Shown here: piece by piece, positions 2,897 through 35,389 of the stretch
How positions within the stretch are numbered: position 1 is the first letter of the stretch
Layout of the letters: the number at the start of each line of letters is the position of its first letter
From: Lachnospiraceae bacterium
GTDB taxonomy: Bacteria > Bacillota > Clostridia > Lachnospirales > Lachnospiraceae
Assembly: GCA_017538995.1 (NCBI GenBank)
Contig: JAFYHV010000011.1
Span: 1-43,293, forward strand
Length of the DNA stretch: 43,293 nt
Reading direction: 5' to 3'
Made by a program: the position numbers and the translations under genes
The notes under the pieces: generated by a model
Database searches by the model: none
What the model was told of the DNA's origin: nothing
The model's input: only the letters and a program-made list of their open reading frames with translations

Positions 2897-5809
2897 CTAC
2901 TTGAAGAACGGGAACCAGCTCTTCTTGTTGTCCTCGGGTTTGCCTAAAACTTCCTCGGCAACTTCCCATGCGGATTTCTTGGGTTGCTTTTCTTCCGGCT
3001 CTGCCTTTGCGGCTTTTTCTTTATTCTCGGAAGCTTTTTCTTTCTTTGCGTCAGGCTCTGCTTTTACAGCATCCTTGGCTGCAGCCTTATCCTTTGAATC
3101 ATCGGATTTCTTTTCGGCTTTGTCTTTGGCAGCATCCTTGGCATCTTTCTTGTCGGAATCGGCTTTGCCTTCTGCTTTAGCGCTGTCCTTGGCATCAGCT
3201 TTGCCCTCAGATTTTGCTTCTGCTTTGGCATTATCCTGCTTGGCATCTGCCTTGCCTTCGGATTTTGCTTCAGCCTTGCTCTCTGACTTGGAGGCTTCTG
3301 CTTTAGCATTGTCGCCTTTTGCTCCGTCAGCTTTTGAACTGTCGGATTTGGCTTCAGCTTTTACGCCATCTTTAGCGCTGTCAGATTTGCTATCGGCTTT
3401 TGCTCCGTCTTTTGCACTGTCTGCCTTAGCAGCATCCTTTGCAGCCTCAGCTTTAGCACCTTCTTTAGATCCTTCCGCTTTGCCGTTATCCTTCTTTACG
3501 CCTTCAGCTTTTGCATCTTCAGCCTTTTCAGCGCTCTTCTTTTCAGGCTTTTCTTCTTTTACGGGCTCAGCTGCATCGGCTTTCTTAGCCTTGCTTTCAG
3601 CTTTATCTTCAACTTTACCCTTAGCAGTATCGGCTTCTTTAACAGTCTCCGGATATACCTTGTCAACCATGTTTTCATCGCTGACAGGTGTTCTCTTTAA
3701 GCCGTTCTCGGTAAAGATTGCTTTGAATACGCACGCAGATTCTGCAGGAAGTTTAACTTTAATCTTTCCGTCTTCCGCTTTGATGGTTACCGTGTTAAAC
3801 GAAAATCCGTTTTGGTCGGTGAAGGCAATTCTCTGCATTGAAGCATTTTTCGGAACGCCGATTCGCCATGTCTGAACTTCTTTTTCGATTTCGTGGTCAT
3901 TGTTGTTAACGACAACGACTATCTGCTCTTCTTTGTCGAATCTTCCGTAAGCAACATAGTTATAGTCTTCGCCGAGGTTCATGAGCGAACCTGTTAAAAG
4001 AACCGTGTTGAGCTTATGGACTCTTATCATCTGCTTGTGGAACTCGATGAGCTCTCTGTCTTCGTGTCCCCACGGATATGTTCTTCTGTTGTCGGGATCG
4101 GTGAATCCGCAGACTCCTGCTTCGTCTCCGTAGTAAATCGTCGGAGCACCGGGCCAAGTCATCTGCATCACAACGGCTTCTCTGAATACTGCTTTGTTGA
4201 CACCTTCTTCAGCTGCTTTCGAGCCGAGCGTGTGAAGTCTTCCGACCTTTTTATTTGTTCTGGTTAAAAATCTTGAATGGTCGTGGTTACTAAGTTCATT
4301 CATGGAAACCTGGAGAGATGAGTTCGTAAAATTGGTGCCGTGATGTGTCATTGCACCCCAGAAACTCTCAGCATTTCCGAGCAAATCTTCTCTGTAGTCG
4401 TCGGAATGTTTCTGCATACCGGTTAAGAACCAGGTAACGGGCTCCATAAATGCATCATAGTTCATGACGCTGTCCCATTCGTCGCCCTGCAGCCATTCTC
4501 TCGAATATCCGTAATGCTCTGCGATAATAACGGCATTGGGATTTGCAAGCTTAACCGATTTTCTGAACTCTTTCCAGAATCTGTGGTTAAACTCGGGCGA
4601 GTGTCCTAAGTCTGCTGCCACGTCCAGTCTCCATCCGTCAGCATTGTACGGAGCGGAAACCCATTTACGGCCGACCTTCATGATATAATCGGTCAGTTCT
4701 CTGCTGCCTTCATAATTTAACTTAGGCAGTGTATCGTGTCCCCACCATCCGTCATAGCTCGGATTGTAAGGCCAGCAGTCGTCTTTGTGGAATCTGAAAT
4801 AATCCTTGTAAGGGCTCTTTTCGGAAATAAATGCGCCCTTTTCATAGCCTTCCTGCTCTTCGTAGATTCTTTCTCTGTCGAGCCATTTGTTGAATGAACC
4901 GCAGTGATTGAATACACCGTCAAGAATGACTTTCATACCTCTCTTATGCGCTTCTTTTACGACCTTTGCAAAAAGCTCGTTGCTCGCTTCGAGGTTCTTT
5001 TTATTTGTAACACGGTTGATATATCTGGTTGCGAAACGGTTTTCTTTCTGACCGTCTTTTAAGAGCTCACCTTCGTCATCCACGATTTTGCCGATATGGG
5101 GATCGATATAATCGTAGTCCTGAATGTCGTACTTGTGGTTTGAGGGTGATACGAAAAGAGGATTGAAGTAAATAACGTCGATACCGAGATCCTCGAGATA
5201 GTCCATTTTGTCGAGTACGCCCTGTAAGTCACCACCATAAAATTCACGAACGCCCATCTGCGCGGGATATTTATCCCAGTCTGTAACCTGCTCGCTATAG
5301 CCGTCGAGATATGTATACTCGTTGGTAAGAACGTCGTTTGATTTGTCGCCGTTATAAAATCTGTCCACGTAAATCTGGTACATAACGGCGCCTTTAGCCC
5401 ATGTGGGTGTTCTGAAGCCGGCGATAAGACGGAAATTGTAGTATTCCTGGATGTCCTTTGAGATACCGCGGGAATTGTAATAACACATAACCTTTCCGGC
5501 TATAATCTGAAAGCAGTATCCGATGATTCTTTCATCCATGGTAATGACGCATGAATAGTAATCAAAAAGCGCATCAACCTCGGTTTTATTCATTTCAACC
5601 GACTTGCTGCCTGAAATAAGAAATACTGCATCAACATTATTTTTCGCAGTCCTGAATCTGACTGTAACTTTTTCTTTAAAGCGGGGCTCCGCAGGAGTGA
5701 CATAGTCCTGCGTAGTATCCGAGAACAGAGCCTGTTTGTTAAGCACAGGTCTCATATTGAGAATGTATTGAAATCTATCCTGAATTTTGTTTCTGTCGTC
5801 TATGTTCAT
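2897..5809 (-). CDS. GH13 alpha-amylase/neopullulanase with long Lys/Ala-rich C-terminal tail
   Basis: This is a cytoplasmic glycoside hydrolase of family 13, with no signal peptide, so it likely acts on glycogen or imported maltodextrins. Numbering from ATG 5809, a beta-sandwich N-domain (1-135) precedes the TIM barrel. The conserved blocks are Asp-Gly-Val-Phe-Asn-His near 297, nucleophile Asp396 in Gly-Trp-Arg-Leu-Asp, acid/base Glu431 in Ile-Ile-Ala-Glu-His and Asp510 in Asn-His-Asp. A C-terminal beta-domain ends near 705. The remaining roughly 265 residues are a low-complexity Lys/Ala/Glu/Asp/Ser tail closed by a Trp- and Phe-containing peptide (Ser-Ala-Trp-Glu-Val-Ala to Trp-Phe-Pro-Phe-Phe-Lys). 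An in-frame ATG lies nine codons upstream at 5836, but the promoter puts the transcript start at about 5835, and GGGGTG precedes 5809. The neopullulanase-like subtype is inferred. Confidence 0.9.
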   Translation of the reverse strand: MNIDDRNKIQDRFQYILNMRPVLNKQALFSDTTQDYVTPAEPRFKEKVTVRFRTAKNNVDAVFLISGSKSVEMNKTEVDALFDYYSCVITMDERIIGYCFQIIAGKVMCYYNSRGISKDIQEYYNFRLIAGFRTPTWAKGAVMYQIYVDRFYNGDKSNDVLTNEYTYLDGYSEQVTDWDKYPAQMGVREFYGGDLQGVLDKMDYLEDLGIDVIYFNPLFVSPSNHKYDIQDYDYIDPHIGKIVDDEGELLKDGQKENRFATRYINRVTNKKNLEASNELFAKVVKEAHKRGMKVILDGVFNHCGSFNKWLDRERIYEEQEGYEKGAFISEKSPYKDYFRFHKDDCWPYNPSYDGWWGHDTLPKLNYEGSRELTDYIMKVGRKWVSAPYNADGWRLDVAADLGHSPEFNHRFWKEFRKSVKLANPNAVIIAEHYGYSREWLQGDEWDSVMNYDAFMEPVTWFLTGMQKHSDDYREDLLGNAESFWGAMTHHGTNFTNSSLQVSMNELSNHDHSRFLTRTNKKVGRLHTLGSKAAEEGVNKAVFREAVVMQMTWPGAPTIYYGDEAGVCGFTDPDNRRTYPWGHEDRELIEFHKQMIRVHKLNTVLLTGSLMNLGEDYNYVAYGRFDKEEQIVVVVNNNDHEIEKEVQTWRIGVPKNASMQRIAFTDQNGFSFNTVTIKAEDGKIKVKLPAESACVFKAIFTENGLKRTPVSDENMVDKVYPETVKEADTAKGKVEDKAESKAKKADAAEPVKEEKPEKKSAEKAEDAKAEGVKKDNGKAEGSKEGAKAEAAKDAAKADSAKDGAKADSKSDSAKDGVKAEAKSDSSKADGAKGDNAKAEASKSESKAEAKSEGKADAKQDNAKAEAKSEGKADAKDSAKAEGKADSDKKDAKDAAKDKAEKKSDDSKDKAAAKDAVKAEPDAKKEKASENKEKAAKAEPEEKQPKKSAWEVAEEVLGKPEDNKKSWFPFFK

Positions 5810-5841
5810 ACTGCACCCCATAGCAAATACATACATAGATT

Positions 5842-5870
5842 ATTTTACCGCTTTTGTGCCTTTTTTTCAA
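5842..5870 (-). promoter_or_regulatory. sigma-A-like promoter of the GH13 gene
   Basis: On the minus strand TTGAAA (5870-5865) and TAAAAT (5847-5842) are separated by 17 bases. Transcription should begin near 5835, which rules out the upstream in-frame ATG at 5836 and supports ATG 5809. Confidence 0.65.
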
Positions 5871-5871
5871 T

Positions 5872-5896
5872 AAAAAAAGGTGCTCTGGGCACCCAA
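5872..5896 (-). terminator. second of two tandem terminators after nagB
   Basis: On the minus strand GGTGC and GCACC pair around a five-base loop (5879-5893) and are followed by seven U residues (5878-5872). It lies 3' of a stronger hairpin at 5906-5933 and just upstream of the GH13 promoter, so it insulates that gene from nagB readthrough. Confidence 0.65.
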
Positions 5897-5905
5897 AAAA
5901 TGAAA

Positions 5906-5933
5906 TAAAAAAGGCAGCCGAAACTGCCTTTTT
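5906..5933 (-). terminator. intrinsic terminator of nagB
   Basis: On the minus strand AAAAAGGCAG and CTGCCTTTTTT form a perfect stem with a six-base loop (5911-5930), followed by a U run. It sits about 36 bases after the nagB stop codon. Confidence 0.85.
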
Positions 5934-5968
5934 ATCCTTAACTTTTTTCAAGTTGAATTTGCTTTAAA

Positions 5969-6760
5969 TTACAGACGTTCTTTCTTCTCGATATCGAGGA
6001 AATACTTGTATGTATCAACGGTAAGTTCGCCGCAAGCTTCTTCGTCACACGCGATGATAGCACCATTGTGCATCTGAAGTGCTGAGCAGGTCCATTTCTG
6101 GCTTACGCTGCCTTCAACTGTTGCTGCAAGTGCTCTTGCTTTGTTGTGACCAGAGATAAGTACGAGAACTTCTTTTGAATCGGTAACGGTTCCGATACCA
6201 ACTGAAAGTGCCTGTGCGGGTACTTTTTCGGGATCGTTTCCGAAGAATCTGGAGTTAACGATACGTGTATCTGTTGTAAGATCTCTTACACCGGTACGTG
6301 ATGCGAGTGATGTGTAGGGCTCGTTAAATGCAAGATGTCCGTCTACACCGATTCCACCCATGAAAAGATCGATTCCGCCGTATGATGCGATCTTCTTTTC
6401 ATAATTTGCGCACTCTTCTTCGGGATTGTCTGTCATACCGTTAAGAATGTTGATGTTTTCAGGCTTCATGTCAACAAGGTGATTGAAAAGATTGTCGTGC
6501 ATGAAATACCAGTAGCTCTGGTCATGATCCTTGGGAAGGCCGAGATACTCGTCCATATTGAATGTAACAACATTGGCAAAAGATACTTCGCCTGCCTTGT
6601 TCATTCTTACAAGTTCTTTGTAAACACCGATGGGTGAAGAACCTGTGGGAAGGCCGAGAACAAAAGGTCTGTCTTCCTTGTGTGCATTGATTTTGGCTTT
6701 GATATACTCTGCAGCCCACTTGCACATCTTATCATAATTATCCTGAATTACTACTCTCAT
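5969..6760 (-). CDS. nagB: glucosamine-6-phosphate deaminase
   Basis: NagB interconverts glucosamine 6-phosphate and fructose 6-phosphate plus ammonia in the cytoplasm. The 263-residue length is normal. Visible signatures are Leu-Pro-Thr-Gly-Ser-Ser-Pro (phosphate loop, near 40), Asn-Met-Asp-Glu-Tyr (general base Asp, near 70) and Gly-Val-Asp-Gly-His-Leu-Ala-Phe-Asn-Glu-Pro (catalytic Asp/His/Glu relay, near 140). The start is supported by AAGGAG seven bases upstream. Its leader contains a glmS ribozyme, so GlcN6P should cleave this mRNA. That is an odd wiring for a catabolic deaminase and suggests either net synthesis of GlcN6P or a non-standard consequence of cleavage. Tandem terminators follow the gene. 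It could share a transcript with the sortase-LCP pair upstream, because no terminator is obvious between them. Confidence 0.95.
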   Translation of the reverse strand: MRVVIQDNYDKMCKWAAEYIKAKINAHKEDRPFVLGLPTGSSPIGVYKELVRMNKAGEVSFANVVTFNMDEYLGLPKDHDQSYWYFMHDNLFNHLVDMKPENINILNGMTDNPEEECANYEKKIASYGGIDLFMGGIGVDGHLAFNEPYTSLASRTGVRDLTTDTRIVNSRFFGNDPEKVPAQALSVGIGTVTDSKEVLVLISGHNKARALAATVEGSVSQKWTCSALQMHNGAIIACDEEACGELTVDTYKYFLDIEKKERL

Positions 6761-6805
6761 ATAAAAATCTCCTTATCTGCTGAATATTTGGAATTTATTA
6801 CAGTG

Positions 6806-6960
6806 ATAAGAGAACCTCTGTTACGGTGTTAATTCCGCTTTTTCTTTTCTCTCTGACGACGCACTAATTCATGTAAATGAATACGCCGTGACAGCATCCG
6901 CCGAGTCTTTCGATAACTGCCAACCCTCGTCACCCTTTCGGGCCTGGCGCTAACATCCTG
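6806..6960 (-). ncRNA. glmS ribozyme (GlcN6P-activated self-cleaving RNA) upstream of nagB
   Basis: The minus strand carries the conserved core in order: AGCGCC at the cleavage site (A at 6951, G at 6950), then a P1 hairpin GCCC-GAAA-GGGU, then GACGAGG, GUUAUCGA and UCGGCGGAUGC. GGCAG pairs with CUGUC as P2.1. A P3 hairpin (ACGGCG with CGUCGU, capped by AUUCAU/AUGAAU) follows, and a plausible P4 is closed by AGAGA/UCUCU, ending near 6806. Self-cleavage between 6951 and 6950 needs GlcN6P as cofactor. The class normally precedes glmS; here the only downstream gene is nagB, whose ATG is about 46 bases 3' of the element. Core identity is near certain; the exact P4 boundary is less so. Confidence 0.93.
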
Positions 6961-7017
6961 TCTGGTACCTCTGCCCAAACTTTAGGAAGTTTTACTATCA
7001 TAAAAGATTAAATAATC

Positions 7018-8088
7018 CTACTCGATTTTTTCATAAAACAGGTCAAAAATCAAGTCTTTTAACGATTCTTCATCGACATAGAATTCCTCATAACCCTCTT
7101 CGTTCTCCACAGTTTCGCCGGAAAGCGTATAGATGTTTTCCGTATCAAACTCATAGTTTACGCAGGTGGTTGCAAGGTATGAAATTCTTGATGAATCCAG
7201 ATTTGTTACCGTATATTCGCTTAATACATCCAGAAGTTTTATGGGGAATGTGGCATCTTCTTTGGTCTTCTCCAGAATCTTTGCAAACATGGCGCTGATA
7301 TACTGCTTCTGTCTGGCCATTCTGGATTCAACGGAATTGAAACTCTTAACATCCCTGTACTGGACATATATTCTTGCATCATCGCCCTTAAGCGTAATTG
7401 TTTTTCCCTGGCTGTTTTTAAGTTCATTCGAACCTTTCGGAATGTTTTCCAAAACTTCGACTTCAACTCCGCCCATAAAATCATTAAGTTCGGCTACGCC
7501 GTTAAGCTCGAGCGAATAATAACCGTTTATCTGCAGGAAATTGAAAAGCTGGGAAACCGCTTCGACCTGTCTTTCGCAGCTGTCTTCATGACCGGTTCCG
7601 TAGCCGTGTGCAAGGCAGATCTGTTTAACCTCAGTGTCGATGAGCTCTCCGTCTTTGTTGTAAACTTCCATTTCCGCCATGGAGTTTCTGTTTACGTTTA
7701 TCAGGTTGACCTTTTTTGTTTTATGATTGACAACCATCAAAATCAGGGCATCCGCCTGTCCGCCCTTCTGATAATCCGTCACTTCATCCTCATCCACAAG
7801 GTCATCCCTGTGGTCGATTCCCATAAAAAGAAATGTCATTACGTCGGGATTGAAAACGTATTTTCCACCCTTGTAATTAATCGATCCGTCATCCTCTATG
7901 TCTTCCTCGGGAATAATTTCATTAATCTTTATTTCTCTTTTGTTTTCAGCGTAAAGCTCTTTCTTTCCGTGCCCTCTGAAAACGAAAAAAGAAATAATTA
8001 AGCCGCCCGCTATTACGGCAAGTAACAGCAGAACGGCAATTACGATTCTTTTTATATTCGGTTTTCTTTTCTTTTTATCTGCACTCAT
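7018..8088 (-). CDS. LytR-CpsA-Psr (LCP) family glycopolymer transferase
   Basis: This 356-residue membrane-anchored protein has a Lys/Arg-rich start and one transmembrane helix (about 14-37), then an extracytoplasmic LCP domain from about residue 80 (Thr-Phe-Leu-Phe-Met-Gly-Ile-Asp) through Gln-Ala-Asp-Ala-Leu-Ile-Leu-Met to the core motif Asn-Val-Asn-Arg-Asn-Ser-Met. Most family members have Pro-Arg-Asp-Thr at that motif: the catalytic Arg is kept while Asp is replaced by Asn. LCP proteins move undecaprenyl-linked polymers such as teichoic acids or capsule onto peptidoglycan. The gene overlaps the upstream sortase gene by 14 bases, so the two are translationally linked. The nagB ribozyme leader follows at about 60 bases. 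Confidence 0.88.
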   Translation of the reverse strand: MSADKKKRKPNIKRIVIAVLLLLAVIAGGLIISFFVFRGHGKKELYAENKREIKINEIIPEEDIEDDGSINYKGGKYVFNPDVMTFLFMGIDHRDDLVDEDEVTDYQKGGQADALILMVVNHKTKKVNLINVNRNSMAEMEVYNKDGELIDTEVKQICLAHGYGTGHEDSCERQVEAVSQLFNFLQINGYYSLELNGVAELNDFMGGVEVEVLENIPKGSNELKNSQGKTITLKGDDARIYVQYRDVKSFNSVESRMARQKQYISAMFAKILEKTKEDATFPIKLLDVLSEYTVTNLDSSRISYLATTCVNYEFDTENIYTLSGETVENEEGYEEFYVDEESLKDLIFDLFYEKIE

Positions 8089-8992
8089 CCAGTAAAACTC
8101 CCTGAACCAGATATCTGTTTGAAGGAACGTTTTTTATGCAAGTCGATAAAGTAAGCATTTTTGTTTCGGGAGTAAATTCGCATTCCCTCGTATTGTCTCT
8201 GGGTCCGTCAAAAGCGATAACGCCGTTTAAATAATCAACCCAGGTCTCGTCATCCCAGATATGTGTTGCAAGAATATGAAGGTTGCTGCCTTCGTAAGCC
8301 GCAACAATTTTATATACCAGGATATCGTCCGGCATATAAATGAACATGTACTGAACTTCCTCAAAAACAGCCGGATCCTCGAGTCTGTGAAGTGACGAAA
8401 ATCTCTTGTCGTCTCTCATGTTGTGACCGTAAACAACGGTCATTCTGTCCATAAAATCAGTATTGTTGTAAGTCGGTTCGGTATAAATACCGCCGGGATA
8501 ACCTGCCGTTCCGTCAAGATTGTGGTTAAGATAATACGCATCATCGTCAGGGTGCTGTACTATCGGATCGTCCACGTCAAGATTGGGAATGTAAATCCAC
8601 GCATAAATATCTTTGTTGACGGTTTCTTTTAGTTCGTCAAAGTCAAGAGTTTTGTCAGGCACTATGATTCCATAGGTCTGAAGGTATCTTTCCTTTTTTT
8701 CTTCCATGGTACATTCGGACCATTCTTTTACGGGCTCTTCCGTCTCTTCGACCTCTTCTCCGCCTTCCTCCTTCGGAGTGATGACGCTTATCTGTGAAGT
8801 ATCTACAATTACGGGATTCGAGGTGTCCGCACCGTCATTTACCATATCTCTGAGTTCCTGATTTCTCTTGTTGGCAGTTACTCTGCTGACATAACGAAGC
8901 ACAAGAAAGCTTGCACTTAAAATTGCAACAATAATCAGAAATATACTGAATCCCAGCCATATTTTATTTTTGTCGTTTTTCCCTTTTTCCAT
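8075..8992 (-). CDS. class B sortase
   Basis: This 305-residue protein has an N-terminal transmembrane anchor (about 12-32), an acidic Thr/Glu-rich linker and a sortase B domain. The segment Trp-Ile-Tyr-Ile-Pro-Asn-Leu-Asp, the catalytic His in Tyr-Gly-His-Asn-Met and the catalytic Cys in Leu-Ser-Thr-Cys, with the Arg ten residues or so later, are all present. It cuts a C-terminal sorting motif and transfers the substrate to the wall or to a pilus subunit. No protein in the window has an obvious LPxTG/NPxTx-type signal, so the substrate is elsewhere. It has its own promoter at 9056-9084 and is followed by an overlapping LCP gene. GGAGAAA precedes the ATG. Confidence 0.92.
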   Translation of the reverse strand: MEKGKNDKNKIWLGFSIFLIIVAILSASFLVLRYVSRVTANKRNQELRDMVNDGADTSNPVIVDTSQISVITPKEEGGEEVEETEEPVKEWSECTMEEKKERYLQTYGIIVPDKTLDFDELKETVNKDIYAWIYIPNLDVDDPIVQHPDDDAYYLNHNLDGTAGYPGGIYTEPTYNNTDFMDRMTVVYGHNMRDDKRFSSLHRLEDPAVFEEVQYMFIYMPDDILVYKIVAAYEGSNLHILATHIWDDETWVDYLNGVIAFDGPRDNTRECEFTPETKMLTLSTCIKNVPSNRYLVQGVLLDECR

Positions 8993-24343: not shown

Positions 24344-26401
24344 TTAAAATTCTATGTACATTGCGGGGCGTACTCCAAATGGTTTTATATTACCGGAAGG
24401 CCCATCATTCCAAGGCTGGCCATGTATATACGAATAACAACCACTTTCCCAAACAATACAAGCGCCTTTTTGGTCTGTCTGAGGTGTTCTAAGAAACCAC
24501 ATCGTTCCAATTTTTCCTACGTTTTCTTGTTCATAAAAAGGGTCAGGACAAAAACTCGTTTCCAGAAGAATCGATTCAGCCCCACGGCTCACTGCATAAG
24601 GTGTCGGTTGTACTATTGCTTTGTTACTAAAATAATTGCTATAGTAATCCACTTCATAGCCGAAATAGTTATAAACTTCATCCAGGCTCAAAATAAATAC
24701 TTGGTCCTCTGTGTCATTTCCACCGGAAATACCACTATTACCATTCTTTTCATTTTGTAATGTTACCTTAGGAATATGTGTTTTTTCATTTTCATTAAAT
24801 GCCTTATCCAAGAAATATATTCTTAACCATTTTCTAACATTACTTGTTTCCCATGTGACAGTAGAGTCTTCATCGGTATCATTCTTATAGTTTACGGCAT
24901 CAAGAACATATTTACTTACTACCAATACTCTGTTTTCCTCCTTTGAAAGGATAATCCAATCAATAGGTTCCTGTCCGTTAGTTTTATCATTATCCTGTTC
25001 CCATGTACCAAACTGAATTTCATCACCAACTTTTGCTTTACTTAATCCGCAGGGAAGAACTTCAGTTTTAACATTACCGCATCCGTTTAAACATGACCAC
25101 TTTGCAAACCCATCTTCGGTTAACGTAGGCATTTTTTGGAAGTTGGCAACATCATCATATCTATGTGCATTAGGATCAGGTTTTCCATATTTATATGTTC
25201 TCGTATAATCTATCTCGCCGCAAGCATAACAAGCGTAATAATATGTTGCCGCCTCCTTACATGTTGCCGGACTCTTCAAATATTTATCATTATCAGTAAA
25301 CAAATTTTTCTGGAAATCATGTCCTAAAGGCTCGCCACGTGTAAATGTTTCTTCACCTTTGGCACCGCATTTACACGAATAATAGTATGTTGCGGGGGTT
25401 GTACATGTAGCCAAACTCTTTAGATATTCCGGACTGGTATTTTCAATACCATATACATGTGTATGCTCTCCAAGAGTATTGTTTCCGCTGGCGGTGTTAT
25501 CATCACCACCATTTTTAGGTTTATAGGTTCCTTTATCCTTGGCAGTATAACTGCCTCTGTTTATTCCGTATGCCTTACAGATATTGTCAAACTCAATAGA
25601 GTTCGCAAAGCCGGCAAATACTTCGTCTCTGGTCATACCGTTCTTAAGGGCGAATAACCAATTATACTTTCCGTCGGCATCAGAAGGACGTCCAAACATA
25701 GCAAGGTAAAGATTTTCAACAAAATCCTCGTCGCTCAGTCCTTTGTTGATGTATTCCTTACTGAAAATAAAGGATCTGGCACATTCGGAGCCTGATATCT
25801 GCTTTGTAATTAGTTTTTCTACCCAGTTCTTCTGGCCATCTTTATCACCGATTCTTCCAAGGCAAATCTTGTACATTCTTTCAACGTAAAGATTAACATT
25901 GTTAATGGTTTTTCTGTCATATCCCATTACATATCTGCCTGCGGTAATTCCATAACTATCGCAGATATTGTAAAACTCAGTTGAATTTGCAAAGCCTGCG
26001 AATACTTCAAGCCTTGAAACACCGCTATTCAACTTGTTCATCCAGTCATTATAACCACTTTCATCAGGTTCTCTGCCCATAAAAAGCATATAAAGATCTT
26101 TCAGATAAGCATCATTATCTTTATTCTTTGCCACATATTCCCGGCTGAATAAAAAACCGTATGCTATTTCAATTCCGACAGCTTTACCATTTAAAAGCTG
26201 GTCTTTCCAATCAGCAAATCCGGGCGGATCTGATGGTCTGTCAAGTGTTACTGTATAGCAACGTTCAACGAAATCGTCCAGTGTTCCGGCTGAACCGTCT
26301 GCGTTTGCATTAAGTGTCGGAAAAGAAATCACTGATATTACCATCAGCAATGACAATACAACACTTATCACACTAAATAATTTTCTCCTTGTCTGAGTCA
26401 T
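24344..26401 (-). CDS. secreted protein with four DUF4214 repeats and a C-terminal DUF6273 domain
   Basis: The start is ATG 26401 (Met-Thr-Gln-Thr-Arg-Arg-Lys), with CAGGAGGG seven bases upstream; a signal peptide ends near Asn-Ala-Asn-Ala-Asp (about residue 36). Four DUF4214 units of about 55 residues follow (roughly 40-300) in an A-B-A-B order: A units end in Phe-x-Phe-Ser-x-Glu-Tyr, B units in Gly-Phe-Ala-Asn-Ser-x-Glu-Phe. After a linker come Cys-containing repeats (two clear copies of Thr-Cys-x-x-x-Ala-Thr-Tyr-Tyr-Tyr-x-Cys, one degenerate). The last 220 residues form a DUF6273-type domain ending in Gly-Val-Arg-Pro-Ala-Met-Tyr. The role is unknown, probably surface or matrix associated. 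No clear promoter lies next to it; transcription may enter through a hairpin at 26454-26489. Confidence 0.85.
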   Translation of the reverse strand: MTQTRRKLFSVISVVLSLLMVISVISFPTLNANADGSAGTLDDFVERCYTVTLDRPSDPPGFADWKDQLLNGKAVGIEIAYGFLFSREYVAKNKDNDAYLKDLYMLFMGREPDESGYNDWMNKLNSGVSRLEVFAGFANSTEFYNICDSYGITAGRYVMGYDRKTINNVNLYVERMYKICLGRIGDKDGQKNWVEKLITKQISGSECARSFIFSKEYINKGLSDEDFVENLYLAMFGRPSDADGKYNWLFALKNGMTRDEVFAGFANSIEFDNICKAYGINRGSYTAKDKGTYKPKNGGDDNTASGNNTLGEHTHVYGIENTSPEYLKSLATCTTPATYYYSCKCGAKGEETFTRGEPLGHDFQKNLFTDNDKYLKSPATCKEAATYYYACYACGEIDYTRTYKYGKPDPNAHRYDDVANFQKMPTLTEDGFAKWSCLNGCGNVKTEVLPCGLSKAKVGDEIQFGTWEQDNDKTNGQEPIDWIILSKEENRVLVVSKYVLDAVNYKNDTDEDSTVTWETSNVRKWLRIYFLDKAFNENEKTHIPKVTLQNEKNGNSGISGGNDTEDQVFILSLDEVYNYFGYEVDYYSNYFSNKAIVQPTPYAVSRGAESILLETSFCPDPFYEQENVGKIGTMWFLRTPQTDQKGACIVWESGCYSYIHGQPWNDGPSGNIKPFGVRPAMYIEF

Positions 26402-26446
26402 AAATCCCTCCTGTAATAATCCCACATTTGTCCTAACACTTGTGTA

Positions 26447-26489
26447 CAAAAAAACCTCATAAAGCATGATTGCTCATACTTTATGAGGT
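26447..26489 (-). terminator. terminator or attenuator hairpin upstream of the DUF4214 gene
   Basis: CCTCATAAAG and CTTTATGAGG (10 bp, 11 with the flanking A-T) enclose a 14-base loop; seven U residues follow on the minus strand. It lies after a 31-codon ORF and 46 bases before the start codon of the secreted protein. Confidence 0.75.
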
Positions 26490-26658: not shown

Positions 26659-29331
26659 TTATTTTTCTTTAAAGAGTAATCCGAAGGTTCCGGGACCGCA
26701 GTTTACTGCGATGGAAGCGCAGGCCTGTTTGAAAATAATCTGATCGAAGCTCATCTTCTTTTCGATGTATTCCTTTATCCAGTCCATTTCTTTTTTGTTT
26801 AATCCGACATATGTAACGAACAAAACCCTGTTGTCGATTTTTGAACCTGCGGAAAGGCAGGCGTTGATATAGTTTTTCCATGCACTTTTAGGCGAGCCGA
26901 AGTAAATCTTTCCGAGTTTCATTCTGCCTCGTTTTAAAACAAGTACGGGGCGGCCCATCAGTGATTTTACGAGGTTTGCCATCCTTGTGCTGACCTGTTT
27001 TGATCTGGCCAGGTAATCCAGATTGTCTACGATAAAGCTCGTGTGTATCTTGCCTTTGATATTTTCGAGTTCCTCAATAATATGCTTCGGACTCATTCCT
27101 CTTTCTGCCATACGGCAGGCCTCAAGTACCATGAGACCCTGTGCGCTGGATAAATGTCCCGAATCGACTACAAAAACATTGTCGAATGCTTTTGCGGCAT
27201 CCAAAGCGCTCGGACATCCGGAGTTTTCAATCTTCGATGAAATCGAAATATGAATTACATTGTTTGCATATGAAAGCTGTTTTGCAAAGAACGCTTCATG
27301 CTCCTTGGCATCGGGTGCCATCGGAAGAACCGTATTGGATGTATCTTCCATGTATTTAATAACGCCCGCGGTATCTATTTCATAGCCGTCCTTAAACAAA
27401 CCTTCCTCGGTTCGTACTCTGTGAGGAATAATTGCAATACCGTAGTTTTCAATGAATCCCTTGGGAAGATCGGCAACACTTTCCGTTGAAATTGCAACCA
27501 TCTTTCTCTTCTGACTGCCGTGCATCCAGGAGATTGTCTCTTCAAGGATTTCATCGTCGCCGCCCATAACTTTTACCATGTCTTTGGGCAGATGGCGTAA
27601 CAGTTCACTTTCAAGCTCACTGCCGCTGACGGGTTTTACGAGATAACCGTCAAAGGCTTCCTTCGCATAAAGGTCTCTGTTTTCCTCACCTGCATTTGCG
27701 GTAAGGATAACGATTTTACTGTCTCGGCTGCTGCCGCCTGTCTGGTTGCGGATGCGTTTCTTGCATTCGATACCGTCCATTTCAGGCATCAGATGATCCA
27801 TAAAGATTACGTTGTATTCGATATTCTGAGTCAGCTTAAGTGCAGCTTCGCCGCTTCTTACCGTATCGATTACAACCTTTGTATCACGAAGAAGTTTCGA
27901 AACAACCATGAGGTTTGCTTCGTTGTCATCAACCACGAGAATTCTTGCATCGGGTGCTTCGAATTTCTGTCTGTATTCACTCTTTTTGCCGTAGCCGTGA
28001 TTCTTTTCGAAATCGTATTCGCCGATTTCCTTGTCGTTAACAAGCTTCTGGGGAATCTCGACGATGAAGGTCGAACCCTTGGTATAAACACTGTTTACGG
28101 CAATTTTACCGCCCATCAAATCAAGGAACTGTTTTACGATGGAAAGACCCAAACCCGTACCTTCGATATGTGTCGTGGCATCCTCGTCCACTCTTTTATA
28201 AGCGGAGAAAAGGAAAGGAATGTCTTCTTTTTTGATTCCTATACCGGTGTCGGAAACTGTGTAAATGATATTGCAGGTTTCGTTGTCGAGTTTCTCGCAC
28301 TGAACGGTTAATGAAACAGAACCTTCCTTGGTATATTTTATGGCATTGTTAAGAATGTTAATCAGTATCTGCTTGATTCTGACTTCGTCTCCGACCAATT
28401 CTGCGGGAACGTCGGGCGAAACATTAATTCTGAACTGCAGATTCTTTTCTCTTGCCCTGATCCAGAGCATTCCGACGAGATCGGAAAGCATATTTCCGGT
28501 ATTGTACGGTGCAATCAGAAGATGCATTTTACCGGATTTGAATTTGGACATATCCAGAATATCGTTAATCAGGTTTAAAAGAAGTTTGCCTGCCGAACGG
28601 ATATTTACCGCATCCTCAACTACCTCATCGTTGATGTTTTCACGAAGAATCATTTCGTTAAGACCGATGATGGTATTGATTGGAGTACGGATTTCATGAC
28701 TCATGCTCGAGAAGAACTGATTTTGAGCGGCATTGAGCATTTCGATTTCCTTTTTCTGCTCTTCCGCTCTCTTTTTCTCTTTCGTAAAAAGCTTAACTTC
28801 GAGTCCGACTAAAACGCTGATGGCAAGGCTTATCAGTATCAGTGAAACATATGAGAAAATATTTCCCATGATTCTCGATGACTCAACCACGATTTCCGGA
28901 TGCATAATGTTGATATAATAGCAGCCGGTTGCAACCAGAAGTTCCATAATATAGAAAACTATTCTGGTCTTTCCGTCTAAAAGAATGCTGATTACCAGTA
29001 TCGTGTAAATAAACCAGATCGGAGCGTCTCCGTTTATTCCGCCGCCGTAAATAAACGTCATCGGGAAGAAAATAAATCCGAGCATTAAACAGATCATACT
29101 TGCGCCGAATTTAATCTTTTTCTTTTTTACGGAGAAAATGGCAATGAAAAACACAAAGACTATGGCCACTCCGATAAGAATTCTGTCTAAAAGTTTGTCA
29201 TCCGTCAAAAAGATTTCAATCAGAGACACAACCAATAGAATCTCCGTAATCAGAGCATTTAAAACAAAGAGTCGCTGTCTGATATCTGTGTCGTTGTTAT
29301 ACAGTTTATCCTTAAATCCTTCGTGCTTCAT
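26659..29331 (-). CDS. membrane hybrid histidine kinase with receiver and C-terminal DegV domain
   Basis: This 890-residue protein has five or six N-terminal membrane helices (about 20-180) with no large extracellular domain, then a HisKA domain (His212 in Ser-His-Glu-Ile-Arg-Thr-Pro) and a HATPase (N box near 325, Asp-Thr-Gly-Ile-Gly at 361, Gly-Thr-Gly-Leu-Gly-Leu at 391). A receiver spans 462-582 (acidic pair near 468, Asp512, Lys566). Residues 610-890 form a full-length DegV domain: Ile-Ser-Thr-Glu-Ser-Val-Ala-Asp-Leu-Pro, Ile-Ser-Ile-Ser-Ser near 695, Val-Asp-Ser-Gly near 722 and Asn-Cys-Gly-Pro-Gly-Thr-Phe near 878. DegV proteins bind fatty acids (FakB is one), so the kinase probably senses or handles an acyl lipid. 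The start overlaps the previous stop (ATGA). Confidence 0.93.
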   Translation of the reverse strand: MKHEGFKDKLYNNDTDIRQRLFVLNALITEILLVVSLIEIFLTDDKLLDRILIGVAIVFVFFIAIFSVKKKKIKFGASMICLMLGFIFFPMTFIYGGGINGDAPIWFIYTILVISILLDGKTRIVFYIMELLVATGCYYINIMHPEIVVESSRIMGNIFSYVSLILISLAISVLVGLEVKLFTKEKKRAEEQKKEIEMLNAAQNQFFSSMSHEIRTPINTIIGLNEMILRENINDEVVEDAVNIRSAGKLLLNLINDILDMSKFKSGKMHLLIAPYNTGNMLSDLVGMLWIRAREKNLQFRINVSPDVPAELVGDEVRIKQILINILNNAIKYTKEGSVSLTVQCEKLDNETCNIIYTVSDTGIGIKKEDIPFLFSAYKRVDEDATTHIEGTGLGLSIVKQFLDLMGGKIAVNSVYTKGSTFIVEIPQKLVNDKEIGEYDFEKNHGYGKKSEYRQKFEAPDARILVVDDNEANLMVVSKLLRDTKVVIDTVRSGEAALKLTQNIEYNVIFMDHLMPEMDGIECKKRIRNQTGGSSRDSKIVILTANAGEENRDLYAKEAFDGYLVKPVSGSELESELLRHLPKDMVKVMGGDDEILEETISWMHGSQKRKMVAISTESVADLPKGFIENYGIAIIPHRVRTEEGLFKDGYEIDTAGVIKYMEDTSNTVLPMAPDAKEHEAFFAKQLSYANNVIHISISSKIENSGCPSALDAAKAFDNVFVVDSGHLSSAQGLMVLEACRMAERGMSPKHIIEELENIKGKIHTSFIVDNLDYLARSKQVSTRMANLVKSLMGRPVLVLKRGRMKLGKIYFGSPKSAWKNYINACLSAGSKIDNRVLFVTYVGLNKKEMDWIKEYIEKKMSFDQIIFKQACASIAVNCGPGTFGLLFKEK

Positions 29332-31940
29332 TCTTCCTCCATGGGTTCAAACTCAAAAACATCATCGGATGGCTTCTCTTCTTTACTGCCCTCAGGCCTA
29401 AATTCGAGGACTTCGTTTTCTTCACCGGCACCGGAATCATCGCCGATTGCATGATTTATTCTTTCTTTTAGGACCTCATAAACACTCATCACGTGATCAT
29501 GATTGTCAAAAATATAATTCTCTTTCTTTTCCTTGGCTGCCTTTTCGAGCTTCAATGCTTCCTCGGACAAATCCATTGCGCCGATCATTTTCGCCGTGCT
29601 CTTTAAAGCATGAACGATGATTTCGTAATTGCCCCAGTCTTTCTGCTCATAAAAGTTCATCAGCGCGGGTATCTTTTCAGAGGCCTCATTCGCGAACTGA
29701 ATAAGGAGGGTATTGTAAAATTCCTCATCTCCGAGACAGTATTTTAAGCCTGCTTCGACATCTATATTGCTGCCCTCAAGCTTTTCGGCAAGCGTCTTTT
29801 CGCTCTCTTTTTCGGGAACTTCTTTTATGATGGTTTCTTCTTCCTCATCATCGACTTCTGCAAAATATGAGTTTCCGTCTTCATCTTCATACTCGAAGCT
29901 TAAGAGAGATTTCGGAAGTACCTGCTTAAGCACACGCTCAAGTTCTTCAATTTCAATAGGCTTTGAAACAAATCCGTCGAAACCTTCGGATAAGAACATC
30001 TGCTTTGCGGAGCTCATGGCATTAGCGGTAAGCGCAACAATAGGAACATTGTTGTCAAGGCCTAAAACATCGCCACGGATTTTCTTCATGGCTTCGACAC
30101 CGTCCATTCCGCCCATCATATGGTCCATAAAGATGATGTCAAACTGCTTTTCCCTGCAGATATCGATGGATTCGGGACCGCTCGTTGCGGTTGAAACAAC
30201 CATACCGTATCTCTTGAAAATACTCTTTCCTACAACAAGGTTCATCGGTTCGTCATCGACAACTAACGCTCTTACGCCGTTAAGGCGAAGCTTTCCGCCC
30301 TCTTTTACGCGGGTATTAATGTCGGTATTAAGAACAGCGGTAACGGGGAAGCAGTAGAAAGGCTTCTCCATGATTCTTGCGTTGGACTTTGCGGGAAGTG
30401 TAAAATCTCCGTTTGCAACAACGACAACAATCATTTCTTTTGCAAGTTTTTCCATCAGTTCGATATCCGAACAGTATTCTTCTTCTCCGACGAAAAGATG
30501 TGTCATGTGAAGAGATTCTTTTAATCTCTTTAAGTTATCTGTATTGTCAACTCTGTGCATCTGAATACCGAGGCCGTTAACAATGTTAAGAACCATTGAA
30601 TTGTAGTATTCACGCACAGCGGGGTTTTCGTATTTTTCGAAATGAAGGAATGCGCCTAAGCAAAGCTTGTCCGGATTTTTTACGGACATGCAGCTTGATG
30701 CATCCACAACTGTCTGCGGAAGGCTGACATGAACCGTTGTTCCGACATCGGGTTTACTTTTTATAATCATAAAACCGCCAAGAAGCGATACAAATCCCTG
30801 TACGATTGAAAGACCGAGGCCCAAGCCACCGCCGAGTCTGGCTCTGCCGGAATCAGCCTGATAAAATCTCTCGTATACTCTCTCGAGTTCTTCCTCGCTC
30901 ATACCGATACCGGTATCCGTTACTTCTATGGAAAGGTTAACTCCGTATTCCTGCTCTTCACATGAAATACGAACATATACACCGCCTTCGTGGGTGTATT
31001 TCAAACCGTTTGAAATCAGTGCACGTAAAATCTTCTTTATCTTTGCCGCATCGGAATTCATTACCGAAGGAATTGCGGGATCGACGTCGATGATAAGCTC
31101 GACATCTTTTGATTTGTATTCGCGGATTTCCGTTACAAGGTCGTTTAAAATGGATGAAAGCATGTAGTCTTCATTGTTAACGACGATGTTTTTACGATCA
31201 ATTTCAGAATAATCCAGAATATCGCCTATCTGCTCTGCCACTTTGCGGCCTGCGTTTCTGACCGAAATCATGTCGCGACGGATATCTTCCTTTTCTTCCT
31301 TGTCGATACAGATTCCGGAAAGACCGATGACGGCATTTACGGGAGTACGAAGTTCGTGCGAAACGTTTGCAAGGAAGTCGTTAAGTCTGTTCGTTGCATC
31401 GGTCAGCATGATAATTTCGTCGTTGGATTTTTCGAGTACCTGCGTCCATTTGTCGATGATTGCTTTTGAAAACCATCCGACCAAAAAGATAATAAGACAG
31501 TGCATTACGGTTCTGCTTATAATAAGCGAGTCAAATTCTTTGCCCGCAAGCGCCATCGTGGTTATCTCATATGCCATCGTCATGTAATATGTGATTACTG
31601 CAAAAGTAATAAGTTTCTTTTTACCGGTCAGCGTATACAGAACCATGATTCCGGCCATTACAACGGCCAGGTCGAATGTACTGGTCTCGTGGATACCATA
31701 AAAGAAAAACGAGAACATCATCAAAATGGCATAAAACCAGAGTCTCGCATTGGTCGACAAAAGCTGGCGGATATGGAATATCCAGCTGAAAATCATTCCG
31801 ATGGTAATAGGAATAAGTGCCCATTTCTCCCATCCCATCAGAAAAGACTCCACAATAAGAATGACCGCAAGTATCGAATAACCGATAAGCAGCATTAAAT
31901 GTGATGCCTGAAAATTGTCGTTTCTATCATCATTCTTCAT
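29328..31940 (-). CDS. membrane hybrid histidine kinase with pseudo-receiver, receiver and HPt domain
   Basis: This 870-residue protein has six N-terminal membrane helices (about 12-162), then HisKA (His195 in Val-Ser-His-Glu-Leu-Arg-Thr-Pro) and HATPase (Asp-Thr-Gly-Ile-Gly at 342, Gly-Leu-Gly-Leu-Gly-Leu near 372). A receiver-like stretch at about 425-545 lacks the phosphoacceptor pattern, and a true receiver follows (555-675; Asp606 in Phe-Met-Asp-His-Met). The HPt domain has its His778 in Ile-Val-His-Ala-Leu-Lys-Ser-Thr-Ala-Lys. The last 40 residues are acidic. The layout gives a complete His-Asp-His relay inside one protein, so it can pass phosphate to the receivers of its operon partners. 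It overlaps the upstream gene by 11 bases and the next gene by four. Confidence 0.94.
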   Translation of the reverse strand: MKNDDRNDNFQASHLMLLIGYSILAVILIVESFLMGWEKWALIPITIGMIFSWIFHIRQLLSTNARLWFYAILMMFSFFFYGIHETSTFDLAVVMAGIMVLYTLTGKKKLITFAVITYYMTMAYEITTMALAGKEFDSLIISRTVMHCLIIFLVGWFSKAIIDKWTQVLEKSNDEIIMLTDATNRLNDFLANVSHELRTPVNAVIGLSGICIDKEEKEDIRRDMISVRNAGRKVAEQIGDILDYSEIDRKNIVVNNEDYMLSSILNDLVTEIREYKSKDVELIIDVDPAIPSVMNSDAAKIKKILRALISNGLKYTHEGGVYVRISCEEQEYGVNLSIEVTDTGIGMSEEELERVYERFYQADSGRARLGGGLGLGLSIVQGFVSLLGGFMIIKSKPDVGTTVHVSLPQTVVDASSCMSVKNPDKLCLGAFLHFEKYENPAVREYYNSMVLNIVNGLGIQMHRVDNTDNLKRLKESLHMTHLFVGEEEYCSDIELMEKLAKEMIVVVVANGDFTLPAKSNARIMEKPFYCFPVTAVLNTDINTRVKEGGKLRLNGVRALVVDDEPMNLVVGKSIFKRYGMVVSTATSGPESIDICREKQFDIIFMDHMMGGMDGVEAMKKIRGDVLGLDNNVPIVALTANAMSSAKQMFLSEGFDGFVSKPIEIEELERVLKQVLPKSLLSFEYEDEDGNSYFAEVDDEEEETIIKEVPEKESEKTLAEKLEGSNIDVEAGLKYCLGDEEFYNTLLIQFANEASEKIPALMNFYEQKDWGNYEIIVHALKSTAKMIGAMDLSEEALKLEKAAKEKKENYIFDNHDHVMSVYEVLKERINHAIGDDSGAGEENEVLEFRPEGSKEEKPSDDVFEFEPMEEE

Positions 31941-34325: not shown

Positions 34326-35303
34326 TCAATAAAGTGTTACTTTAACTATTCCCCTCTCAAACGCAGGTTTTGCGGTTACCTGCACCGCGTTTTCGTTTAT
34401 TTTGTCTCTGTGATAAAAATGTATGTGTCCGGCTAAAAGAAGTTTTACCGGCCCGTCGTCTTCCGAAGCAAATGATATAAGGTGGTTTGTGGCACCCTTC
34501 GGGTAAACCGCTCCGTCTCCCATTAAGACTCTGGACTGTCCGTATTCATCGCCACCCCAGATTTCGTTGGTTCTCTCAACAATGTCCGTCTCTTCGTAAA
34601 GAGGTAAAATCGGGACATGCTCGGCTATGATTACTTCTTTGCCTTTTTCTTTTAATGTTTGAATTGCATCTACGGTCTCGTCGCAGACCTGGTTGTTGTA
34701 ATCGTCTAAAAGAAGTATGGCAAAATCGTCATATTCTTTTATCTGACAGCCTTCTTTTACTTCATTTAACGAATCGTATCTTGTGAAGTAATCCTCATAG
34801 GCTTTCTCGCTGAAATACTCGCTTCCGTATGCAAAATCATGGTTTCCCATGATGAAAAGATACGGGCATTCAAGTTTTCCGATTTCTTTTTCTATATATT
34901 CAATCGAGGCATAGGTGGCTTCATCCGCCATGTCTCCGCCGAATATCACAAGGTCGGGGTTTTCTTTTTTCACATAATCCATGACTATGGAAAAGTTCTT
35001 TTCCGAACCCTTTGAATCGCGCTCGAATTCCTTATACCTGCTATCGCAGATGTCTTTTACGTCCGCATCTCTCTTGTCACAGAGGCATATGTGGGCGTCG
35101 GCTATAAAAACAATCGTAAAAGGTTCTTCGAGCCCCTCGATATCTATTTTTTCTTCATAAACGGTAACTTCTTTGTTCGAAAGAGCCTTGATTTTGTTAA
35201 CGGCTCTTTTAGGAATGTCAAAATGCACCAGTAGCACGCAAATCATGATAAGCAGGGCAATTACCGGCAGAATCACCGTTATTATTTTTCTTTTACCAGT
35301 CAT
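34326..35303 (-). CDS. membrane-anchored calcineurin-like metallophosphoesterase
   Basis: This 325-residue protein has one N-terminal membrane helix (about 8-28) and then a phosphoesterase domain. The metal-binding motifs appear in order: Asp69-x-His71, Gly-Gly-Asp-Met-Ala-Asp, Gly-Asn-His-Asp-Phe, a His in Ala-Glu-His-Val-Pro, and Gly-His-Ile-His-Phe-Tyr-His. The domain should lie outside the membrane. The substrate is unknown: related proteins hydrolyse lipid-linked or nucleotide phosphates (UDP-diacylglucosamine hydrolases and cyclic nucleotide diesterases share this fold). It is the first gene of the signalling operon, from the promoter at 35360-35389, and ends 14 bases before the next start. 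Confidence 0.88.
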   Translation of the reverse strand: MTGKRKIITVILPVIALLIMICVLLVHFDIPKRAVNKIKALSNKEVTVYEEKIDIEGLEEPFTIVFIADAHICLCDKRDADVKDICDSRYKEFERDSKGSEKNFSIVMDYVKKENPDLVIFGGDMADEATYASIEYIEKEIGKLECPYLFIMGNHDFAYGSEYFSEKAYEDYFTRYDSLNEVKEGCQIKEYDDFAILLLDDYNNQVCDETVDAIQTLKEKGKEVIIAEHVPILPLYEETDIVERTNEIWGGDEYGQSRVLMGDGAVYPKGATNHLISFASEDDGPVKLLLAGHIHFYHRDKINENAVQVTAKPAFERGIVKVTLY

Positions 35304-35359: not shown

Positions 35360-35389
35360 ATGATAACAAATTTGTCCATTGAATGTCAA
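35360..35389 (-). promoter_or_regulatory. promoter of the four-gene signalling operon
   Basis: Minus-strand TTGACA (35389-35384), 18-base spacer, TATCAT (35365-35360). The start of transcription would be near 35353, giving a leader of about 50 bases before ATG 35303, whose ribosome binding site is weak. Confidence 0.65.

Follow-up and report, generated by a model that had tools for sequence, protein, structure and literature searches.

A hybrid histidine kinase with a DegV domain, and its paired partner kinase, in Lachnospiraceae and other Clostridia

The window analysed here, a 43,293-nucleotide stretch of DNA from a Lachnospiraceae bacterium (GenBank assembly GCA_017538995.1, contig JAFYHV010000011.1, positions 1 to 43,293 of the forward strand), encodes on its minus strand a hybrid histidine kinase that ends in a DegV domain (hereafter the DegV kinase), directly downstream of a second hybrid kinase, its partner. 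This kinase pair is the conserved core of the gene set. At the level of the sequences compared, the two hybrid kinases are paired and intact, the pair has a single Hpt domain, the kinase-linked DegV domains form a clade of their own, and residues typical of FakB proteins have been lost. We see an even chance that the DegV kinase is one half of a two-kinase phosphorelay, in which the DegV domain would be regulatory, probably ligand-sensing, and which would often feed cyclic di-GMP (c-di-GMP) signalling. A preliminary description of this DNA had proposed the kinase-DegV fusion; what goes beyond it is the partner kinase upstream, the rule of a single Hpt, the gene linked to c-di-GMP and the DegV genes that stand unfused near kinases. 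The features on which the argument rests are the following.

26659..29331, minus strand: DegV kinase, with membrane segments, HisKA (H212), HATPase_c, receiver (D512), linker and DegV domain; 890 aa
26662..27522, minus strand: C-terminal part with a DegV domain of the kinase-linked type (residues 604-890, Pfam 612-888)
27502..27591, minus strand: conserved linker between receiver and DegV, about residues 581-610 (...EETISWM...)
29328..31940, minus strand: partner hybrid kinase, with membrane segments, HisKA, HATPase_c, receiver and Hpt; 870 aa
31930..34329, minus strand: response regulator REC-GGDEF-REC-HD-GYP, 799 aa, the candidate c-di-GMP output

The DegV kinase and its recurrence among genomes

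The 890-aa frame of the DegV kinase has no internal stop. Pfam places HisKA at residues 202-267 (E = 5e-16), HATPase_c at 314-429 (1e-26), Response_reg at 464-575 (1e-21) and DegV (PF02645) at 612-888, the latter covering model positions 2-278 of 280 (2e-40, 139 bits against a cut-off of 27). The NCBIfam DegV model, TIGR00762, scores 147 bits (cut-off 99.7), that is, the DegV match is full length and above the curated cut-offs of both families. About six hydrophobic segments lie N-terminal to residue 180 by hydropathy. The protein has what defines a hybrid histidine kinase, namely the phospho-accepting His in HisKA, HATPase_c and the phospho-accepting Asp of the receiver, and neither H212 nor D512 varies across a 32-row alignment. 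Pfam, NCBIfam and hydropathy therefore agree with the preliminary description, which had read membrane helices, HisKA (His212), HATPase, a receiver (Asp512) and a DegV domain of full length in one frame. The best NCBIfam scores of the kinase are those to BarA, TorS and LuxQ, unorthodox or hybrid kinases of the type HisKA-HATPase-REC(-Hpt), which resemble it in their core, in their receiver and Hpt modules and in their intact phosphoacceptors. However, it scores far below their cut-offs (298 bits versus 890 for BarA), a DegV domain is present, and the Hpt domain is common to an adjacent pair of kinases.

When 30 genus-mates were searched with the DegV part, 16 proved to have a match in a frame of 760 aa or more. 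At the family level, 76 of 397 genomes, the window's own included, matched at E ≤ 1e-38, and 92 of the 109 matches at this threshold (the window's own among them) lay in frames of at least 700 aa. With the cut-off set at E ≤ 1e-45 and at frames of 700 aa or more, matches were confined to the window's family and one other family (f66) among the 391 genomes of the class-level scan, and to the window's family among the 398 genomes of the phylum-level scan; the family-, class- and phylum-level scans scored at most six candidates per genome, and members may have been missed. A DegV match in a 580-aa frame was seen in another family of the class (G483:C44:64828-65655). A scan of named contigs yielded at least 557 relatives among the 594 stretches listed, and the best 80 were retained; their records are titled Lachnospiraceae, Ruminococcaceae, Oscillospiraceae, Clostridiales, Saccharofermentans, Ruminococcus and others, and many are from rumen or gut. 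These 80 loci are the closest ones, and the counts given below therefore lean towards the window's subclade. As to spread by plasmids, no plasmid record covering 80% of the protein was found among the best 5000 records.

The fusion is thus genuine, as had been proposed, and conserved in many Lachnospiraceae and other Clostridia. A few broken cases (L102, L163, L167, L203 and L207; L numbers denote loci) could be taken to mean that it is a sequencing or assembly artefact, or that the DegV domain is a decaying passenger. This reading is already refuted here, and we give it practically no weight. The fusion recurs in many species, including three of the best 80 loci whose records are not titled as metagenome-assembled genomes or uncultured (L105, L127 and L133) and one in a genome held as a single contig (L101). 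Moreover, the DegV domain is under purifying selection: the ratio of nonsynonymous to synonymous substitution rates (dN/dS) is about 0.04-0.05 in comparison with four close relatives, three of which give a dS near or above 1. In the same comparison, the linker that joins receiver and DegV is at least as strongly constrained. The preliminary description had named separate genes in close relatives as the sign of an artefact. Such genes do occur, but they give no sign of one, since they fall within the same clade, are part of hybrid-kinase operons and for the most part diverge early.

Kinase pairs and the single Hpt domain

Counts refer to 129 distinct DegV kinases, one from the window, 41 from loci L064-L103, 72 from L104-L183 and 15 from L188-L207, with frames open at the 5′ end, DegV kinases of at most 800 aa and rows with identical first 200 residues excluded. 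Domains in the neighbourhoods were called by single-sequence searches with the window's own domains, with a Pfam check on subsets.

In 118 of the 129 cases the gene immediately upstream of the DegV kinase encodes a partner kinase longer than 500 aa. The two genes overlap by 4 nt in the window, and the gap between them is zero or negative in 81 of 106 cases and exactly -4 nt in 63 of these 106. Among the 11 DegV kinases lacking such a partner, those at L069, L090 and L198 start at a contig end, at L081, L093 and L173 the frames next to a contig end are partial, L095 has no more than pieces ahead of the contig end, L102 and L163 have split frames, and L084_5750 follows another DegV kinase; L161 is the only one that clearly has room and no partner. 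At L084 (5750-11139, minus strand) two tandem DegV kinases stand behind a single Hpt-bearing kinase.

Both members of the pair are catalytically intact by sequence. The H-box His, the N-box Asn and the receiver Asp are each present in 128 of 129 DegV kinases, and the partners have the His in 115 of 116 rows (the other being a gap), the receiver Asp in all 116 and the Hpt His in 96 of the 97 rows with letters there. Two partners open at the locus edge (L153 and L170) are counted in the 118 pairs and left out of the 116 catalytic rows. As for domain order, 109 DegV kinases are HK-REC-DegV (HK, histidine kinase; REC, receiver), 18 are HK-REC-DegV-Hpt and two have the DegV domain at the N-terminus.

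The Hpt domain follows a simple rule: in 98 pairs the partner alone has it, in 19 the DegV kinase alone, in one neither kinase has it, and in no pair do both. In the pair with Hpt on neither kinase (L078), a separate 325-aa Hpt open reading frame follows; kinase, receiver and Hpt, the parts of a phosphorelay, are therefore united in one system in 117 of 118 pairs, and the remaining pair has an adjoining Hpt frame. In the 19 cases with Hpt on the DegV kinase, the Hpt-less partners measure 676-695 aa, compared with a median of 866.5 aa for 96 complete Hpt-bearing partners. Pfam gave no Hpt match in any of 20 Hpt-less partners, and matches in five of 32 sampled DegV kinases, which is the number of long-form rows in that sample. 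The rule also holds for the two kinases with an N-terminal DegV domain (L083 and L103), and it is kept at L206, where a 414-aa DegV-Hpt protein without kinase is preceded by a kinase without Hpt. The L083 protein (3808-8544, minus strand; 1578 aa) consists of an N-terminal DegV domain, dCache sensor stretches, HisKA, HATPase, receiver and Hpt.

Of the 118 pairs, 87 are neighboured by a gene encoding GGDEF and/or HD-GYP domains, and the GGDEF motif is intact in 73 of 73 genes beside pairs. In the window, the gene for the REC-GGDEF-REC-HD-GYP regulator overlaps that of the partner kinase by 11 nt. Ten loci (L112, L113, L116, L118, L119, L121, L124, L126, L131 and L151) have a third hybrid kinase, of the type HK-REC-Hpt, ahead of the c-di-GMP gene.

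The kinase-linked DegV clade and the FakB residues

In a DegV tree, a branch with 100/100 support split 41 kinase-linked DegV rows, fused or not, from 26 standalone ones; into this tree entered about every second C-terminal and mid-Hpt row and one of the five phylum-level standalone loci offered. The kinase-linked branch had a value of 100 in the Shimodaira-Hasegawa-like approximate likelihood ratio test (SH-aLRT) in a larger tree. Unfused members of the clade lie in hybrid-kinase operons (L204, L205, L206, L237, L240 and L242). Under midpoint rooting, unfused L240, L205 and the group L026/L204/L242 branch first, the placing of L205 being weak (90/62); L206 and L203 branch further in. The L237 gene, which is the L026 gene, is unfused and lies 24 nt after a REC-GGDEF gene, itself behind an HK-REC-Hpt kinase.

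Of the 13 family-level matches in frames of at most 430 aa, 12 were fetched with their surroundings (G404:C184 was left out), and four matches in frames of 490-562 aa lay outside the examined set. Six of the 12 have Asn at a diagnostic position and stand directly behind a kinase frame (L203-L206, L240 and L242), L203 having the look of a fusion whose frame is split; L243, close to a contig end, is a piece of REC-DegV; and five have His at that position and no kinase within three genes, one of them (L245) being adjoined by a divergent GGDEF gene. Since the DegV genes of the early branches stand by themselves within hybrid-kinase operons, the partnership of DegV and kinase probably preceded the fusion. 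In four genus-mates (L216, L218, L220 and L224), kinase and receiver domains are encoded no more than 1.5 kb from standalone His-type degV genes, possibly a second, unrelated link of DegV to two-component genes. In another family of the order, a 597-aa frame (L246:4100-5893, minus strand) is made up of Dak2, a FakA-like middle domain and DegV, which by its predicted domains is a FakA with an attached DegV domain.

By profile alignment, the DegV domain of the kinase matches residues 2-278 of Staphylococcus aureus FakB1 with short gaps only, the tunnel-building segments included. FakB1 residues Thr62, Ser95, Ser171, His270, Arg173 and Arg205 correspond to P670, E702, S777, N877, Q779 and F811, respectively. 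In FakB, Thr62, Ser95 and His270, together with Ser171, make up the carboxylate network, Arg173 serves catalysis with FakA, and Arg205 serves docking to FakA and to membranes. Thr62-Ser63-x-Pro65 of FakB1 aligns with P670-M671-A672-P673, and the register of the preliminary description, which had laid the Thr-Ser-x-Pro motif on TVLPM (667-671), was off by three residues. According to excerpts of PMC8892158, Arg173 and Arg205 are completely conserved and essential in FakB, and Arg205 of FakB1 is needed there for binding to phosphatidylglycerol membranes and for fatty acid exchange.

Arg173 is kept in 16 of the 129 fused domains (it is replaced in 113) versus 39 of 39 standalone ones, and a basic residue at the Arg205 position in one of 129 versus 35 of 39 (34 Arg, one Lys), so that the combination occurs in none of the fused and in 35 of the 39 standalone domains. 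The Arg205 column is fixed by the Gly at 812, which is invariant in both sets. Likewise, Thr62, Ser95 and His270 occur together in 0 of 129 fused versus 27 of 39 standalone domains, the other 12 standalones having Tyr at 270; singly, the fused rows hold Thr62 in 33, Ser95 in 29 and His270 in two cases. The His270 position is Asn in 121 of 129 fused and in 0 of 39 standalone domains. Ser171 is not a general mark of FakB, because 38 of 39 standalones have Gly there. Furthermore, the K-x-R pair of the standalones (Lys203 and Arg205 in FakB1) is mostly hydrophobic in the kinase-linked clade (I809 and F811 in the window). The unfused kinase-linked members L026 and L203-L206 have a basic residue at Arg205 in none of five and Asn at the His270 position in all five, whereas Ser95, Ser/Thr62 and Arg/Lys173 are retained in five of five each. 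From these members we infer that docking to FakA was lost first and the pocket altered later.

On the residues tested, a FakB-like function was rejected. A working FakB tethered to the kinase, which would present fatty acids to FakA and report their supply, might be expected from membership of the DegV fold family (by profiles and the FakB1 alignment), from the presence of Dak2 (FakA-type) in 25 of 30 genus-mates and from the 16 domains with Arg173. We nevertheless find it very improbable, because the two arginines for FakA binding and catalysis are never kept together, and no Dak2 match was found in the window's own 96%-complete genome, although this may reflect an assembly gap. The preliminary description had taken fatty-acid binding and the link to FakA as defaults; neither is supported for the window domain or for most of its clade, in which the arginines and most carboxylate-contact residues are replaced. 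Its remark that the ligand may differ is supported. Given a pocket so altered, an ordinary free fatty acid held in FakB fashion is unlikely in the window's subclade.

Putative signalling role and genomic setting

In the two-kinase phosphorelay that we favour, the kinases would act together, with phosphate passing from one or both of them through the receivers to the shared Hpt domain and on to a partner regulator. Where the gene of a c-di-GMP enzyme adjoins, this regulator is probably its product, and the level of c-di-GMP would shift. Less certainly, the DegV domain would be a cytoplasmic ligand-sensing module, and its binding of a small ligand of hydrophobic or lipid-like nature would shift the balance of kinase and phosphatase activity. 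The alignment of the whole fold with its tunnel segments, the strong constraint and the conserved linker to the receiver argue for such sensing, although we put the chances that the DegV domain senses a ligand of this kind at roughly equal for and against.

The main rival is a docking module, that is, a DegV domain holding the partner kinase, the shared Hpt domain or the downstream regulator by protein-protein contact, while the membrane segments sense. A precedent is FakA_C, likewise a FakB-related fold inside a larger enzyme, whose two FakB-related subdomains have no tunnel and work through protein binding (excerpts of PMC9136124). The change of the K-x-R pair to mostly hydrophobic residues, as a buried contact needs, and the variable placement of DegV (ahead of the kinase, behind the receiver, ahead of Hpt, or as a free gene in the operon) would also suit docking. 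In contrast to FakA_C, however, the tunnel segments are present by alignment in the window domain, and the five unfused members keep Ser95 and Ser/Thr62 as if a polar ligand contact had outlasted the FakA-docking Arg. Overall, we judge docking to be rather unlikely. Still less probable, in our view, is an output role of the response-regulator type, in which phosphorylation of the receiver would control lipid capture or transfer by DegV. It would explain why DegV directly follows the receiver in 127 of 129 kinases, but not the two N-terminal fusions (L083 and L103), the receiverless DegV-Hpt protein at L206 or the free DegV genes, and the membrane-binding and fatty-acid-exchange residue of FakB1, Arg205 (PMC8892158, in excerpts), has been lost.

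Several observations count against the split phosphorelay with a sensing DegV domain. Fourteen of the 15 mid-Hpt representatives form one clade in the larger tree, and the 19 cases with Hpt on the DegV kinase, being mostly one clade, stand for few independent events. The membrane regions of the two kinases are weakly alike (hhalign probability 52%), and a heterodimer is thus unproven. In 20 of the 118 pairs there is room and yet no receiver gene directly upstream of the partner (eight pairs end at a contig or locus edge), so that c-di-GMP is not a universal output. Sensor domains usually lie N-terminal to the kinase, unlike the DegV domain in the 127 kinases where it follows the receiver, and a pocket changed in this way might bind no ligand at all. 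Finally, seven of 46 standalone control loci (L026 not counted) have two-component domains within 1.5 kb; neighbourhood alone is therefore no proof of a kinase link, and the tree is the stronger evidence for the kinase-linked group.

The gene set of the window is completed by the following features.

34326..35303, minus strand: calcineurin-like phosphoesterase, 325 aa, first gene of the overlapping set
35360..35389, minus strand: promoter-like site 5′ of the gene set, TTGACA-18-TATCAT, its second hexamer preceded by TG (match to consensus only)
26454..26489, minus strand: 16-pair hairpin followed by a T run, 3′ of the DegV kinase gene, terminator-like (consensus match only)

The phosphoesterase gene overlaps the REC-GGDEF-REC-HD-GYP gene by 4 nt and, among the loci laid out, occurs in close relatives only. 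The scan for promoter-like sites gave no excess over shuffled sequences. No known RNA element was found at the gene set, the window holding only a glmS ribozyme and one tRNA at Rfam gathering scores. The ribozyme (RF00234; 6798-6962, minus strand) precedes a 263-aa gene of the glucosamine-6-phosphate isomerase family (5969-6760), not a glmS synthase gene. Just downstream of the DegV kinase gene (24344-26467, minus strand) lies the gene of a 707-aa protein with four DUF4214 stretches, DUF6273 and a secreted-looking N-terminal part, whose true start may lie further in because the listed one overlaps the terminator-like hairpin.

Compared with known FakB/DegV proteins (PF02645, TIGR00762), the window type belongs to the same full-length family, but it is fused to, or shares operons with, hybrid kinases and stands in a separate clade with Arg205 and most carboxylate-contact residues replaced. 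In diffusible signal factor (DSF)/Rpf signalling, a sensor kinase and an HD-GYP regulator respond to a signal that is a fatty acid. The likeness lies in the outline (a lipid-type signal, a hybrid kinase and an HD-GYP output); here there are instead a DegV domain and a pair of kinases, and no Rpf-type synthase or sensor domain turned up among the 20 window proteins scanned. Titles in the open-licence literature on DegV and histidine kinases indicated no kinase-DegV fusion, and with subscription journals and domain databases outside this search, novelty in print is provisional. In the excerpts concerned, DegV appears as separate proteins or gene neighbours (PMC9912610, PMC12688256, PMC3146951, PMC9385722) or as ordinary FakB proteins (PMC12594616, PMC10138225). 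A conserved kinase-receiver-DegV signalling unit in gut and rumen clostridia is apparently undescribed.

As a tentative proposal, to which we give somewhat less than an even chance, the DegV kinases may represent a new receptor class. That is, an operon-encoded DegV protein would have lost its contact with FakA and been captured into an Hpt-sharing kinase pair, linking an intracellular hydrophobic ligand, other than a free fatty acid held as in FakB, to c-di-GMP in gut and rumen Clostridia. Few intracellular lipid sensors that feed two-component systems are known to us, and the finding bears on the question of how gut clostridia couple the state of their membranes or lipids to c-di-GMP. A fold that supplies fatty acids for a metabolic kinase would, as a separate clade, have become a component of a signalling relay, with the free gene within a kinase operon and the fusions at either end as likely surviving intermediates. 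The rule of one Hpt domain per pair is, moreover, a natural experiment on how a relay is divided between two hybrid kinases, and both this rule and the capture of DegV are open to direct tests.

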